IMG/VR virus record: IMGVR_UViG_3300048927_000784
Location: 1-40,632 of that record
DNA length: 40,632 nucleotides
Strand: one strand, 5' to 3'
Source of the DNA: a virus
The notes beneath the pieces are model-generated. The model was not told the DNA's origin, did not search any database, and worked only from the letters and a program-made list of their open reading frames with translations. Position 1 is the first letter of the stretch. Each line of letters begins with the position of its first letter. Positions 3,192-9,156 of this stretch are shown here, piece by piece. Position numbers and translations under genes: made by a program.

Positions 3192-3349
3192 CGCTCTTCT
3201 CCTTCATCGAAAGAATGGGACGGCCCGCTGGGCAAGTGCCGACGTGATAGCGGCGCCCATGGGAGGCTTCTCCGATTGAAGATCTTGCGCTAACCTCTTG
3301 AGCAAGGACGAGGCGCGATGCGACCTTCATCCAGTCGGGCGCGCAATTG

Positions 3350-4045
3350 CTATGCAAAGCGGAGCGATCGGGCATGGGTGACCTCTTCTGGGATCAGGAA
3401 GCTGGACTGTCGCGGACCGTCATGGTGGACGAGTTGGGTGGCTGGCCGTTCGCGATGGGTGAGGACATCGCGCAAGGCACCCTCGAGGAAATGCTGGACA
3501 GATATCTTGGTCTTTCCGACGAGGAGCGTCCTCGAATGACCATCACGATTTCCGGTGGCTTCCATCTGGAGGGCCATGAAATCGACGCGCTTGCCGCCCG
3601 TCGGAGGCGAGAGCGAGGCGGGAGCGACGGGTGAAGGGCAGCTGACCATGTGGTATCTCTGCCAATATCGGTCCCAGCGCGTCGCCGCTCCGGCCGCCAG
3701 CACCGCGCATGACAGGTCGCGACCGTCCGGCAGGCGACACCGCGCGACAATCCGATTGTAACTGGGTTCGAGCGCCAGGCATGTCAGCCGGCGGTGTAGC
3801 ACCAGTCCGGACACCGTTCGCTGGCTCGCTTGGGCCCGTCCGTCGCTGCAGACGTACCCACTGCGGCGCTGGCGACACGGTTGGGCGGACTCGAAGTCAG
3901 GCGCCTGGATCCCGGCAATACGAACCTTCGGCCCCTCGGCGCACCACAGCGGCCCGTCGCCATCGTGAACGCGTGTGACAGTGCAGGAGAACGTTTGCGG
4001 CGAACCGAGGCTGACTAGTAAAAACACGATATCGATCATGATCAT
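3350..4045 (-). CDS. Secreted thermonuclease-like protein with antisense C-terminal extension
   Basis: Residues 1-18 form a hydrophobic export signal. Residues 22-136 are a staphylococcal-nuclease-like (TNase) fold with HDGDG, VRIAGIQAPD (R42; D50 where the family usually has Glu) and YNRIVARC (R98, R102), ending RWDRYWQRY. Small sphingomonad TNases usually stop about here. This frame instead runs on for some 95 residues to 3350, and that extension lies exactly opposite the plausible plus-strand gene 3374-3634 and has no family character. The stop codon may have been lost, or the real product may be shorter. The Glu-to-Asp change may weaken activity. Possible roles are nucleotide scavenging or degradation of competing DNA. 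Confidence 0.6.
   Translation of the reverse strand: MIMIDIVFLLVSLGSPQTFSCTVTRVHDGDGPLWCAEGPKVRIAGIQAPDFESAQPCRQRRSGYVCSDGRAQASQRTVSGLVLHRRLTCLALEPSYNRIVARCRLPDGRDLSCAVLAAGAATRWDRYWQRYHMVSCPSPVAPASLSPPTGGKRVDFMALQMEATGNRDGHSRTLLVGKTKISVQHFLEGALRDVLTHRERPATQLVHHDGPRQSSFLIPEEVTHARSLRFA
3374..3634 (+). CDS. Small acidic hypothetical protein (86 aa)
   Basis: The product starts MGDLFWDQEAGLSRTVMVDE and continues with an acidic helical middle (EEMLDRYLGLSDEERPRM), a short beta-like ITISGGFHLEG stretch and a basic tail. The ATG at 3374 is preferred over an in-frame ATG at 3347 because GGAG lies 9 nt upstream. No known domain is recognised. It lies fully antisense to the C-terminal extension of the thermonuclease frame. 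The protein-like composition of this strand makes it the better call for 3374-3634, but both frames cannot be fully functional. Confidence 0.5.
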   Translation: MGDLFWDQEAGLSRTVMVDELGGWPFAMGEDIAQGTLEEMLDRYLGLSDEERPRMTITISGGFHLEGHEIDALAARRRRERGGSDG

Positions 4046-5756: not shown

Positions 5757-6032
5757 TCACGCCGCCTTGCGCTGGATGAGAAAAATGTTCCGCTCGCCGT
5801 CGTCGGGATCGCCGCCTGCTTCAGCCGACGTCCATCGGCTGCAGAAGCGGCTCTCATGCGTTTCCGGGTACATCGGCACAGGAAAGCGTCCGGCGCCCTG
5901 CACCACGACCGGAGGATTGATCTGACAGACGCCAAGTTCAGGGCCCGCCGACGGATCGCGGGTGGCATTTGCCAGCTTCGGCCCCGAGCGCGTCCACCAG
6001 GCGCAGGTAGCGCAAATCCGATCGCAGCTCAT
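5757..6032 (-). CDS. Cys4 mini-protein, last gene of the coupled operon
   Basis: A 91-aa protein with a putative metal-binding Cys set: C-x2-C (CATCAWW), then GVCQINPP, then MYPETHESRFCSRW. The layout C-x2-C ... G-[VI]-C ... PP ... [YF]-PE-x-H ... C is the same as in the product of the next gene upstream, so the two are likely paralogues. The start ATG at 6032 overlaps the previous stop (ATGA), indicating translational coupling. No enzymatic motif is visible. A zinc-binding, protein-interaction or DNA-mimic role is possible; nothing in the sequence decides. Confidence 0.7.
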   Translation of the reverse strand: MSCDRICATCAWWTRSGPKLANATRDPSAGPELGVCQINPPVVVQGAGRFPVPMYPETHESRFCSRWTSAEAGGDPDDGERNIFLIQRKAA

Positions 6033-6292
6033 TGCTTGACCTCCGCATAGCGGTTCGCCTGCTCGGAGAGCGCAACATTCATGTCAGCGAGGAACTCGCC
6101 GCACTGCTGCTCGCGGTGAACCTCCGGGAAAACTGAGGTGACGGTCACCCCGCTGACTTCGCACCAAGTCTGATTGAAAACCTTGGGCGGGTAACGCCGG
6201 CAGATGCCGACGCGTGCGGCGGAGGGCTTCGGTTCAGCCGTGGCATCCGGAGCGCCACGGCTGAGGAAGTGCGTGCAGCTCGCGCAGTTCAT
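6029..6292 (-). CDS. Cys4 mini-protein, middle gene of the coupled operon
   Basis: An 87-aa protein starting MNCASCTHFL, chosen because its ATG overlaps the stop of the upstream gene (ATGA at 6289-6292). Cys pattern: C-x2-C near the N-terminus, GICRRYPP in the middle, FPEVHREQQCGEF near the C-terminus, then a helical tail. It matches the neighbour at 5757-6032 in motif order, so the two form a tandem paralogous pair. A longer frame starting upstream is not supported, as it would run deep into the preceding gene. Confidence 0.7.
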   Translation of the reverse strand: MNCASCTHFLSRGAPDATAEPKPSAARVGICRRYPPKVFNQTWCEVSGVTVTSVFPEVHREQQCGEFLADMNVALSEQANRYAEVKQ

Positions 6293-7245
6293 GCCAGCAC
6301 CATCATGCGCTGCTCGGCGCCCTGCTTTGAGAGGTCGATACCGCCGATGCAGGCGAGATCCTCGATGCAGTCCCACAGCAACTGTTCGGTCGCATCCTTG
6401 TGACCCAGGATGCCCGACGTAAAATCAGGATGAGCAGGGTCAACCACCGCACGATCCGACCAAGTTTGGCAGGCAGTATGCTGGAATGCGACGCGTAGTT
6501 TCGCCACCACGCCTTCGATCGTTTGAGCGCGGAGCTGGTGAATCTCATCGTCGAACGGGCCGCACAAGTTCTCCCAATCAGGAACTCGATCGGTGAGGTC
6601 ATGTCGCATGTCGAGCAAGTACGACATGCCCTGCCGGACTCCTGCAAACGCAGTGAGGAGTTCGGCGTCGGCGTTGGCGTTGGCGTTGGCGTTGGCTGCG
6701 CCGGTGTCGCCGAATGCAAGCGCACGCGCCAACGGCGAGCGGGAAAGCAGGGCACTGCGGAGAGCCACTGCGAAGCGCTCTTCAGGAACGGTGCTGCCTT
6801 CCAGCTCAACCCAGGACTTCAGCCCCTTACCGAGGGGCGGGGCATCTAGCGTGTCCAGCAGTTCGAAGTACGTCATCAGATCTTGATCAGCGGCCGTCAG
6901 GCAGGCCGTCGCGAGAAGACGATCCATGCCCGCAACCTCCCGCTCGCACAGCGCGATGAAGGAATCGTCGGACTCGCCTTCGTGGGACCAATACGCGATG
7001 GCAGTGTCTAGCCAGGGGAGGAACGCGGCGAGCATCGCCGGCGACAGGTCTCGGTGAGCGATCTGCCGAGCGTTCTCGTAATTGCAGCCTGCGAGGTCAT
7101 CGAGAGTGGCGTCAGTGATGCTGGCAGGCAGGACATCGAGCGCTGCGCGGATGCTCACGACCGCGGTTGCGCCGGGAAACGAGAGCACCGGGGTGCGGAA
7201 TGCGAGAGGTGAGGAGGCGGTGATCTGACCGTACTGGAACGTCAT
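6289..7245 (-). CDS. Hypothetical protein with Ala-Asn repeat linker, first gene of the coupled operon
   Basis: A 318-aa protein starting MTFQYGQITA at 7245; AAGGAG lies about 7 nt upstream, so this start is preferred to an upstream in-frame one at 7278. The sequence is mostly helical and acidic with no signal peptide or membrane segment. Near residue 190 is an Ala-Asn dipeptide repeat encoded by a GGCGTT hexamer array (6664-6699), which probably joins two domains. It is followed by two coupled Cys4 genes. Upstream, at 7283-7301, is an operator-like element also found at 8222-8240. No function is recognised; it is probably an early phage gene. Confidence 0.65.
   Translation of the reverse strand: MTFQYGQITASSPLAFRTPVLSFPGATAVVSIRAALDVLPASITDATLDDLAGCNYENARQIAHRDLSPAMLAAFLPWLDTAIAYWSHEGESDDSFIALCEREVAGMDRLLATACLTAADQDLMTYFELLDTLDAPPLGKGLKSWVELEGSTVPEERFAVALRSALLSRSPLARALAFGDTGAANANANANADAELLTAFAGVRQGMSYLLDMRHDLTDRVPDWENLCGPFDDEIHQLRAQTIEGVVAKLRVAFQHTACQTWSDRAVVDPAHPDFTSGILGHKDATEQLLWDCIEDLACIGGIDLSKQGAEQRMMVLA
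6664..6699. repeat. GGCGTT hexanucleotide tandem repeat
   Basis: Four perfect GGCGTT copies (6670-6693) flanked by one-step variants GGCGTC (6664-6669) and GGCTGC (6694-6699). It lies inside the gene 6289-7245 and encodes Ala-Asn dipeptides on the minus strand. Hexamer slippage would change linker length without shifting the frame. Confidence 0.8.
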
Positions 7246-7282
7246 GTGCTTGCTCCTTTTGCCGACAACCGGCGGCAAGAGA

Positions 7283-7301
7283 GATAGATATACCTATATC
7301 T
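7283..7301. promoter_or_regulatory. Operator-like element, copy 1
   Basis: GATAGATATACCTATATCT, 38 bp upstream of the start at 7245. It matches the element at 8222-8240 in 16 of 19 positions, in the same orientation. It is itself partly palindromic (AGATAT at one end, ATATCT at the other). It is inferred to be bound by one of the regulators encoded nearby (7340-8155 or 8258-8431). Confidence 0.5.
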
Positions 7302-7339
7302 TCCGTCAAGCGGCAACGTGTACAGCTCTTTCCGTGCGA

Positions 7340-8155
7340 TTAGCTGCTCGACTCTTGCACGTCCCGATGATCTCGCGGGCCAAGAGCCTTGCGTGCAGCG
7401 TCGACCACGTCGAACCCGTGCGCACGGCTGACAACTGACTCGTGCGTGATGAGTCCATCGTAGTGCTCGGATGCATCCTGGAGAGCTCTGCCTCGCGCCC
7501 GCCGCTCTCGCTCCCACTCTCCCAACTCGTCAGCGAAAATCTCCGGCCCGAGCCCTAGCGGCTCCAAAGAGGCCCATAGCAGGGCCAAAAGAGAATCAAC
7601 TTCGATGCAGATACTGGTGGCGAGACGATTTTTGGTCAGAAAGCTGATATATCGATGTCTCCCAATCACAGTTTCGGTTGGATCTTCCCCAGACTCTCGC
7701 AGCCAATCAGAGAACTCCTCGTCACTTAGGAATGCTTCTGTGATCTCCTCGCTTGTGAAAGTGTCTATGAACACGTGCATGTGGTCTGATCGATCGACTT
7801 TGAGCTCTGAGAGGGCGTCGAGTTGCACCAAGCAGTAGTGTAGGTGTTCTTCGCCATTCGCTCTGCATATAGCGGTTTCTACAACGGCATCTTTGATAGC
7901 TTGCCAGCCAGTGAGGACCACCTTTTGCGCCCGCTCCGGGGTGAGGCCGACATGCAGGAGTTTGAGCATGAACAGCAGTTGGTAGACCTGAGTGGCGCCG
8001 TACGCTGCCCGACCTCCGCGGCCGACGTTTACCCCCTCAGGGAAACCCATCTTTTGCCACTGCTTCAAACGCGCTTGGAAAGCATCAGCACGGTCTGGCG
8101 CAATCTGGCTGACGAATGCGAGAACGAATTGCGTTTGGGCGAAAGTGAGGGACAT
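7340..8155 (-). CDS. MerR-like helix-turn-helix regulator, 271 aa
   Basis: The N-terminal ~85 residues resemble a MerR-type winged helix. A helix ARLKQWQKMGFP is followed by a Gly-rich wing (NVGRGGRAAYG) and a helical YQLLFMLKLLHVGLTPERA segment that reads like the MerR dimer-linker entry. The rest (about 90-271) is acidic and helical with no known domain. GGAG lies 6 nt before ATG 8155. It is divergent from the small HTH gene at 8258 across a 102-bp gap holding a palindromic operator, which suggests this pair forms a regulatory switch for the minus-strand early operon downstream. Confidence 0.65.
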   Translation of the reverse strand: MSLTFAQTQFVLAFVSQIAPDRADAFQARLKQWQKMGFPEGVNVGRGGRAAYGATQVYQLLFMLKLLHVGLTPERAQKVVLTGWQAIKDAVVETAICRANGEEHLHYCLVQLDALSELKVDRSDHMHVFIDTFTSEEITEAFLSDEEFSDWLRESGEDPTETVIGRHRYISFLTKNRLATSICIEVDSLLALLWASLEPLGLGPEIFADELGEWERERRARGRALQDASEHYDGLITHESVVSRAHGFDVVDAARKALGPRDHRDVQESSS

Positions 8156-8221
8156 GGATTCTCCAGTTTCGCGAAGGGTTATGTGTACCTCTTGACCGCG
8201 TCAACGGAAGGGTTGTAAAGG

Positions 8222-8240
8222 GATAGGTATACCTCTCTCT
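8222..8240. promoter_or_regulatory. Operator-like element, copy 2
   Basis: GATAGGTATACCTCTCTCT lies between the divergent genes 7340-8155 and 8258-8431. It contains the perfect 10-bp palindrome AGGTATACCT (8225-8234) and shares 16 of 19 bases with the element at 7283-7301. A site between two divergent regulators that recurs before a third transcript is the expected pattern for a shared operator. Confidence 0.55.
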
Positions 8241-8257
8241 TACAAGGACATCTCGGC

Positions 8258-8431
8258 ATGGACTCGTTGGACATTCTCAAGGGAGCCACTGCTGCGGCGA
8301 CGTACACGGGGCTCACGCGCCGCGCGATCTATCACCTCGTCGAAAACGACAGAATCCCGGTGAAGCGGGTCGGCCGTTCTCTGTTCTTCCGGAAGGCGGA
8401 ACTTGAGCGAGTCTTCTCACCCGGCGCCTGA
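8258..8431 (+). CDS. 57-residue excisionase-like HTH protein
   Basis: ATG 8258 to TGA 8429-8431. The product reads as a complete excisionase/AlpA-type winged helix: GATAAATYTGLTRRAIYH (helix-turn-helix), LVENDRIPVKRVGRSLFF (wing) and a closing RKAELERVF helix. It has essentially no sequence outside the domain. The length suits phage Xis and Cox-type proteins. Located divergently from the MerR-like gene, it is a candidate excisionase or early-lytic switch protein; the AlpA-like product of 2964-3191 is the other candidate. The start has only a weak AAGGA site, 11 nt upstream. Confidence 0.75.
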   Translation: MDSLDILKGATAAATYTGLTRRAIYHLVENDRIPVKRVGRSLFFRKAELERVFSPGA

Positions 8432-8437
8432 TCGCAG

Positions 8438-8671
8438 CTAATCGTTGCTCGCCACATCCCGCCGCAGCACGAACACGAGCCCAAGCATGAGTGTCTGCGG
8501 CTCGCCGTACAGCACCGACGAGAATCCATCCTCAAGCTGGTCGAGGAAGTGGTGAACCGCTTCGTTCGGCATCTGGGCCGCTCGCATGCTGTCCACGATC
8601 GAGGCCATGACCACGCCGATCGCGCTGATCGTGAGATAGCCCATGTTCCGCGCTTTTCTGTCTTTCGTCAT
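8438..8671 (-). CDS. Small hypothetical protein (77 aa)
   Basis: ATG 8671 gives MTKDRKARNMGYLTISAIGV, followed by helical segments (SIVDSMRAAQMPNEAVHHFL) and a hydrophobic TLMLGLVFVL near the C-terminus. A GTG at 8698 would add nine residues. The AGGAG site is very close to ATG 8671. It converges on the HTH gene ending at 8431. No domain is recognised. It is called because its composition is protein-like and no better frame covers the stretch. Confidence 0.5.
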   Translation of the reverse strand: MTKDRKARNMGYLTISAIGVVMASIVDSMRAAQMPNEAVHHFLDQLEDGFSSVLYGEPQTLMLGLVFVLRRDVASND

Positions 8672-8688
8672 GCTCCTGGAGTTACCCG

Positions 8689-9156
8689 ATGAATGCACCG
8701 TACATCCACGGGCGCCGACGGACTCTCACCGCGTCAGGCGCGATTGATGCGCAGAACAAGGTCCTCTCCGCGATCAAGGAAGAGGACGGTGCTACCTGGA
8801 TCGATATTGGCCGGGTGCTGGGCAAGTCGGACGATCGCGCGGCAGCGTATGGCAACACCGCGTCCGCGATCGACCTTCCGACCTTCCTTGCTGGCTGTCA
8901 CGAGTGGGGCGCTCGCTTCGCTGATCCCTTGCTCGCGCTGGTCGGCGGCAAGTGGGCGGACGTGGGTGCCTATTGCACCAGCGATGAGAAGGCGGCGCTG
9001 ACGCTCGCTTCCCTGCTGCCCGCCGTTATCGAGGTTGAGGCGGATGGCCTGACCGAGGCGCGGGAATTGCTGCCGCATGAGGCGCTGATCCGCCGCGTAC
9101 ATACCCTCACTTCGGCATGGCTGGAGATGATCGCGGCTGAGCGGGGGCGCGCCTGA
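8689..9156 (+). CDS. Phage early protein, unknown (155 aa)
   Basis: A helical soluble protein with TWIDIGRVLGKSDDRAAAYG near residues 36-55, which looks like a helix-turn-helix-type or tetramerising segment. The following part (TFLAGCHEWGARFADPLLAL) and the position between immunity and replication genes are reminiscent of CII-like activators, but the family cannot be assigned by eye. GGAG lies about 8 nt upstream of ATG 8689. It converges with the antitoxin gene at 9180-9464. Confidence 0.65.
   Translation: MNAPYIHGRRRTLTASGAIDAQNKVLSAIKEEDGATWIDIGRVLGKSDDRAAAYGNTASAIDLPTFLAGCHEWGARFADPLLALVGGKWADVGAYCTSDEKAALTLASLLPAVIEVEADGLTEARELLPHEALIRRVHTLTSAWLEMIAAERGRA

Follow-up and report, generated by a model that had tools for sequence, protein, structure and literature searches.

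The analyzed window is a stretch of 40,632 nucleotides (positions 1 to 40,632 of IMG/VR virus record IMGVR_UViG_3300048927_000784). It contains a region in which the genes for a MerR-like protein and a small HTH_17 (excisionase-like) protein diverge, with a coupled minus-strand operon to the left (Table 1). As the preliminary description had placed them, one of the two matching sites precedes this operon (OL) and the other lies between the MerR-like and HTH_17 genes (OR1). Together they bracket the MerR-like gene, and no other strong site occurs in the window. Both are located in short AT-rich intergenic regions, and the surrounding sequence has a [G + C] content of 64%. No DNA match to region 6200–8700 was found in the phage collection. 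Elsewhere in the window, a minus-strand ORF at 3350–4045 has an N-terminal part that resembles thermonuclease and a 36% match in contig L088. Adjoining the integrase, at 1421–2375, are genes for a HTH_31 (XRE) regulator and an IrrE-like M78 peptidase; we take this pair to be an ImmR/ImmA-like arrangement that may act as a second switch of this phage.

Table 1. Genes, palindromes and presumed promoters of the region, in window coordinates.
Feature	Position	Strand	Description and basis
Leftward operon gene 2	6029-6292	-	87 aa; ATG overlaps the stop of gene 1
Leftward operon gene 1	6289-7245	-	318 aa; kept in L003 (68%)
OL	7280-7301		Imperfect palindrome of 22 bp, AGAGATAGATATACCTATATCT; presumed to serve as operator for the leftward operon
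PL (tentative)	7288-7316	-	Presumed leftward operon promoter; TTGCCG (7316-7311), 17 nt, GTATAT (7293-7288); by eye
MerR-like protein	7340-8155	-	271 aa; presumed operator-binding repressor; Pfam MerR_1, AF2 model/CvkR, operator covariation
OR2	8175-8196		Third, weaker copy AGGGTTATGTGTACCTCTTGAC; presumed operator for the promoter of the MerR-like gene itself
MerR-like gene promoter (tentative)	8176-8204	-	Presumed; TTGACG (8204-8199), poor -10 around 8183-8176; by eye
PR	8192-8220	+	Presumed HTH-gene promoter; TTGACC (8192-8197), 17 nt, GTAAAG (8215-8220); by eye
OR1	8219-8240		Imperfect palindrome of 22 bp, AGGGATAGGTATACCTCTCTCT; presumed operator covering the HTH-gene transcript start
HTH_17/excisionase-like protein	8258-8431	+	57 aa; presumed Cro/Cox/Xis-like counterpart; Pfam HTH_17, TIGR01764

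Two 19-mers (7283–7301 and 8222–8240) had been described as identical at 16 of 19 positions, and re-reading of the sequence bore this out. They form the cores of longer imperfect palindromes, in each of which 9 of the 11 half-site positions pair; their reported common orientation carries little information, because OL and OR1 are each imperfect palindromes. When the window was searched with a combined 19-mer pattern (up to 3 mismatches), OL and OR1 were the only occurrences, and no match appeared in 100 dinucleotide shuffles. An exact copy of AGGTATACCT and one copy with a single mismatch are present, compared to 0.11 expected occurrences. A position-weight scan scored the two sites at 39 and 36 (best of 20 shuffled windows, 13), values that are circular because the matrix was derived from those same two sites. 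A motif-free comparison of palindromes on the left and the right yielded a score of 48 (null 30.6 ± 1.9, approximately 9 standard deviations lower), which was reached by 0 of 300 shuffles. In addition to the two sites described before, the weaker copy OR2 was identified 44 bp from OR1 (centre to centre), as an 84% repeat that is supported by the OR1/OR2 pair (p = 0.003) and by the position-weight scan (local p = 0.005).

The presumed promoters were read by eye; a generic sigma-70 promoter scan and a terminator scan of 7240–8300 found none. The promoter-like core of PR (TTGACC-17-GTAAAG) sits between OR2 and OR1, and the sequence TTGACCGCGTCAA (8192–8204) could provide back-to-back -35 boxes for the HTH and MerR-like genes. 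PL was assigned by likeness to the PL/PR pair (inverted repeat I1) of the related phage contig L041, and its -10-like GTATAT falls within OL. One operator type is found at both the leftward and the rightward presumed early promoters, as in phage lambda.

The MerR-like protein scores marginally above the cut-off of the Pfam MerR_1 model (22.0 vs. 21.6 bits), and most of its relatives matched no Pfam model. Structural modeling with AF2 on two sequences gave a pLDDT of 43, and a model based on ten sequences was used (mean pLDDT 74.6; approximately 90 for residues 1–40), of which the C-terminal part is of low confidence. The best PDB match of this model in Foldseek is CvkR (7xn2, E = 2.4e-4, 12% identity), which together with the marginal MerR_1 match points to the N-terminal winged helix-turn-helix of the MerR family. 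Members of this family have a long coiled-coil dimerisation helix after the DNA-binding domain; the monomer model shows helices at 73–82 and 84–99. A sequence search of PDB chains returned nothing significant, and the viral fold library contained no match at E ≤ 0.001. Classical MerR activators have their operator between the -35 and -10 elements, with a spacer of 19–20 nt. Here, OR1 follows the presumed -10 of PR and the spacer is 17 nt, and the protein is therefore unlike a classical MerR activator. The small protein belongs to the HTH_17 family (E = 1.6e-7, 31.9 bits, cut-off 27), and it scores just under the cut-off of TIGR01764 (28.7 vs. 28.8 bits).

Initial protein searches with the MerR-like protein against viral_contigs, plasmids and phages gave 0 matches, as did the HTH protein against viral_contigs; relatives were reached via the neighboring genes and via Sphingomonas genomes. 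Thirteen related contigs were retrieved through the 155-aa protein to the right of the cassette. In a prophage of Sphingomonas sp. NFR04 (L003/L004/L033), leftward gene 1 is 68% and the right-hand 155-aa gene 95% identical to the window, and DNA homology ends near the start of the left operon and near the end of the HTH gene. Between these limits other regulators have taken the place of the whole window cassette, both sites included, and bring paired sites of their own. The replacement (L003:2154–3968) encodes an XRE-like gene, a small divergent gene and, on the opposite strand, a 305-aa clear MerR_1 protein, and carries its own palindrome ATGATAAATTTCCAAT or near copies at both ends (L003/L033). 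A repressor gene between operators, swapped as a unit with them among relatives, is the arrangement seen in lambda-like phages. Two further observations concern the flanking genes. At about 6657–6697, leftward gene 1 contains an in-frame run coding for ANANANANAN, and the L003 homologue is without it. A small gene on the minus strand (8438–8671), which separates the HTH gene from the rightward genes, is kept in 13/13 related contigs, with 35–94% identity.

L041 encodes homologues of both window regulators (MerR-like, 37% over residues 3–91; HTH, 69%). A search of this contig for the window motif found none, and AAGAACAACCTTGTTCT and AAGAACAGTCTTATTCT are present at the two places equivalent to OL and OR1 (cross test p = 0.003). 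In other members of the phage group, this slot is occupied by HTH_3-type repressors and the flanking genes are kept. In one of these, L042, the palindromes ATACGGGACACATCCCGCGT and ACGCGGGATACATCCCGCAT (2395–2414 and 3223–3242) flank the HTH_3-type repressor gene in the same layout. The left/right test, for which region limits were approximate in several contigs, detected no palindrome pair in four other phages of the group (L034, L037, L039, and L045).

Matches to the MerR-like protein were found in 21 of 295 Sphingomonas genomes, in 33 of 398 genomes of the family and in nine viral contigs. At 37 of 64 loci, 36 of them distinct, a divergent HTH_17 gene lies beside the MerR-like gene. A plain 18-mer identity scan of the two sides of the MerR-like gene missed the operators in most loci; therefore, the sequences were inspected and a palindrome score was used that measures the agreement of four half-sites, with 199 shuffles per locus. 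This score was run with three slightly different settings, and the counts given are those of the run over all 36 loci; loci from the 398-genome family search had not been seen when the score was devised. Without any prior motif, a locus-specific palindrome pair was detected in the intergenic region at p ≤ 0.05 in 30 of the 36 loci and at p ≤ 0.01 in 26, although the loci do not represent independent trials because some are related. The remaining six (L020, L046, L050, L051, L063, and L079) fell short of p ≤ 0.05. The palindrome sequence varies between loci and the pairs flank a promoter-like core, with a TTGA/TTGC-type box between the palindromes in 30/30 loci (shuffles, mean 10.5, maximum 16). 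In most loci the palindrome centres are approximately 20–35 nt from the MerR-like start and 20–45 nt from the HTH start, and they are usually 44–66 nt apart; a second copy near the MerR-like start, comparable to OR2, recurs in most other loci. The short AT-rich intergenic regions within 64% GC sequence could by themselves suggest that the likeness of OL and OR1 is a coincidence between two promoter regions. This is contradicted by the shuffles, by the left/right score and by the recurrence of the layout at other loci, and we rejected it as extremely improbable.

To assign the palindromes to one of the two proteins that the preliminary description had put forward as binders (the products of 7340–8155 and 8258–8431), operator similarity was compared with protein identity over 30 loci. 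It correlates with the N-terminal identity of the MerR-like proteins (Mantel r = 0.19, p = 0.003; partial r = 0.22, p = 0.0035), a modest correlation that may be due in part to common descent of each protein and its linked operator, and not with HTH protein identity (Mantel r = -0.08, p = 0.81). When the window half-site was scored in the other 35 regions, the top two ranks were taken by L057 and L060, which have the MerR-like proteins nearest to that of the window (58 and 49% in the N-terminal region). Over all 35 loci, the relation between half-site score and MerR-like identity was not significant (rho 0.20, p = 0.25), and the half-site covariation signal is confined to these two closest relatives. 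Because operator similarity tracks the MerR-like and not the HTH protein, and because L057 and L060 rank highest, we assign the operators to the MerR-like protein, and the palindromes are most likely its binding sites.

A different assignment would make the HTH_17 protein an autoregulator of the Cro or AlpA kind that binds the palindromes, with the MerR-like protein otherwise employed or acting through HTH_17. The HTH_17 gene adjoins OR1, the AlpA protein of a PICI is an activator of its own expression (PMC6092414), and XisF4 binds the common xisF4/pf4r region (PMC7379572). Nevertheless, operator similarity is independent of HTH identity, and HTH proteins that are 80–91% identical adjoin unrelated operators. 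Moreover, window-like sites occur in L060, whose HTH protein is just 25% identical to that of the window, whereas L013/L041, with the closest HTH protein, are without such a site. We regard binding of the palindromes by the HTH_17 protein as improbable, although it may have other binding sites in the region. Of the two proposed binders the MerR-like protein is thus favored, and the HTH_17 protein does not appear to set the operator sequence. The earlier suggestion that one regulator coordinates at least three transcripts is supported; its action on the leftward operon, its own gene and the HTH gene is the reading favored by these comparisons, namely by the sites swapped together with the cassette in a relative, the different sites at equivalent places in L041, and the covariation of operators with the MerR-like protein.

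In the reading that we consider likely, the MerR-like repressor binds the palindromes, which would serve as operators in a lambda-like immunity cassette (approximately 7260–8431). The sites, their positions, their joint replacement with the cassette and the tracking of operator sequence with the MerR-like protein were all computed. From these we infer a model in which a dimer of the MerR-like protein would bind OL and OR1, and OR2 more weakly. At OR1, the protein would cover the HTH-gene transcript start directly past the -10 and switch off the rightward operon, and at OL the leftward operon would be switched off. Binding at OR2, which overlaps the presumed promoter of the MerR-like gene, would make the protein autoregulatory. 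The result would be a silent prophage and immunity to phages that share the operators. The HTH_17 protein may provide the opposing early function (Cro/Cox/Xis-like), produced once repression fails. On the best reading, a CvkR-like MerR-type repressor occupies the cI slot and HTH_17 the cro/cox/xis slot.

A role of the MerR-like protein in maintaining lysogeny is suggested because the same slot in relatives holds HTH_3-type repressors. It might instead own the sites as an activator or as a modulator of excision and early genes, while the XRE/M78 pair at 1421–2375 maintains lysogeny. The ImmR/ImmA-like character of that pair beside the integrase fits such a role, as does the integrase gene that follows the MerR-like gene in many loci. 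We think this unlikely: OR1, beyond the -10 of PR, is placed as a repressor site would be, the slot is filled by HTH_3-type repressors in relatives that have the same flanking genes, and L042 with such a repressor shows operators in the same layout.

The MerR-like/HTH_17 pair may extend beyond phages. The integrase gene that follows the MerR-like gene was read from the sequence at many loci, and matches a PHROG integrase in L085. Three integrated elements of approximately 10 kb (L085, L086, and L087) carry the pair together with an integrase gene and a replication-like gene. L085 and L086 were read over their full length, and searches with selected genes of these contigs identified HNH, terminase, head protease and major head protein genes in the contig L085, and terminase, major head protein and portal genes in the contig L086. 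The chromosomal element L087 (7886–17940) encodes a 50%-identical relative of the window MerR-like protein, with a similar set of integrase, replication, HNH, terminase, capsid, portal and connector genes. The gene arrangement of these elements is like the PICI layout (PMC6092414), and they look like PICI-type satellites that carry capsid genes. Between the window and L057/L087 the protein is 50% identical, and the half-sites are AGGGATAGGTA vs. AGGGATAGGTG and AGGGACAGGTA. Tentatively, a CvkR-like repressor with HTH_17 may form a lysogeny switch that is widespread in phages of Sphingomonadaceae and in satellite-like elements of approximately 10 kb with capsid genes. Phage and element may then repress or induce each other, because the repressor/operator type can be common to both. 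If the proposed immunity cassette is right, the MerR-like protein would be a candidate master repressor for Gram-negative PICI-like elements (cf. PMC6092414). It would also add the MerR type to the kinds of protein able to fill the immunity-repressor slot. Switch operators would be readable from sequence at dozens of loci, giving ready repressor/operator pairs to study how phage immunity changes specificity.

The immunity region of lambda comprises OL/OR, cI and cro, and is exchanged in heteroimmune replacements such as imm434. As in lambda, a leftward repressor gene lies in the window between control regions with common operators, repressor and operators are exchanged as a unit, and a small divergent regulator gene heads the rightward operon. 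In contrast to the lambda CI/Cro folds, the window has a MerR-like presumed repressor and a small protein of the HTH_17 type, and one operator is seen at OL and two at OR, where lambda has three each. Titles and abstract openings in an incomplete library described no MerR-type phage immunity repressor. The best fold match, CvkR, is a MerR-type repressor of the type V-K CAST, a mobile element, and binds an inverted repeat at promoters (PMC9938897). The window protein differs from it by a longer C-terminal part (predicted with low confidence) and by the low sequence identity. CvkR itself apparently does not regulate its own gene, recognizes a 15-nt motif, and controls a transposon rather than phage early genes (PMC9938897). 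In the filamentous prophage Pf4, the repressor Pf4r and the excisionase-like HTH protein XisF4 are divergently encoded around a common control region and act in opposition (PMC7379572). The window has the same gene arrangement, and Pf4r/XisF4 may serve as a functional precedent for a divergent repressor/excisionase switch, although Pf4r is an 88-aa P2 C-like repressor and not MerR-like. In the PICI module, integrase and repressor genes run one way and a divergent regulator/replication operon the other way, and the global repressor of Gram-negative PICIs has been called unclear (PMC6092414). The loci where integrase follows the MerR-like gene resemble this module, whereas a leftward operon and OL set the window, a 40-kb virus record, apart from it. 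The presumed switch of the window is best read as a variation on lambda-type immunity with a MerR-type repressor.
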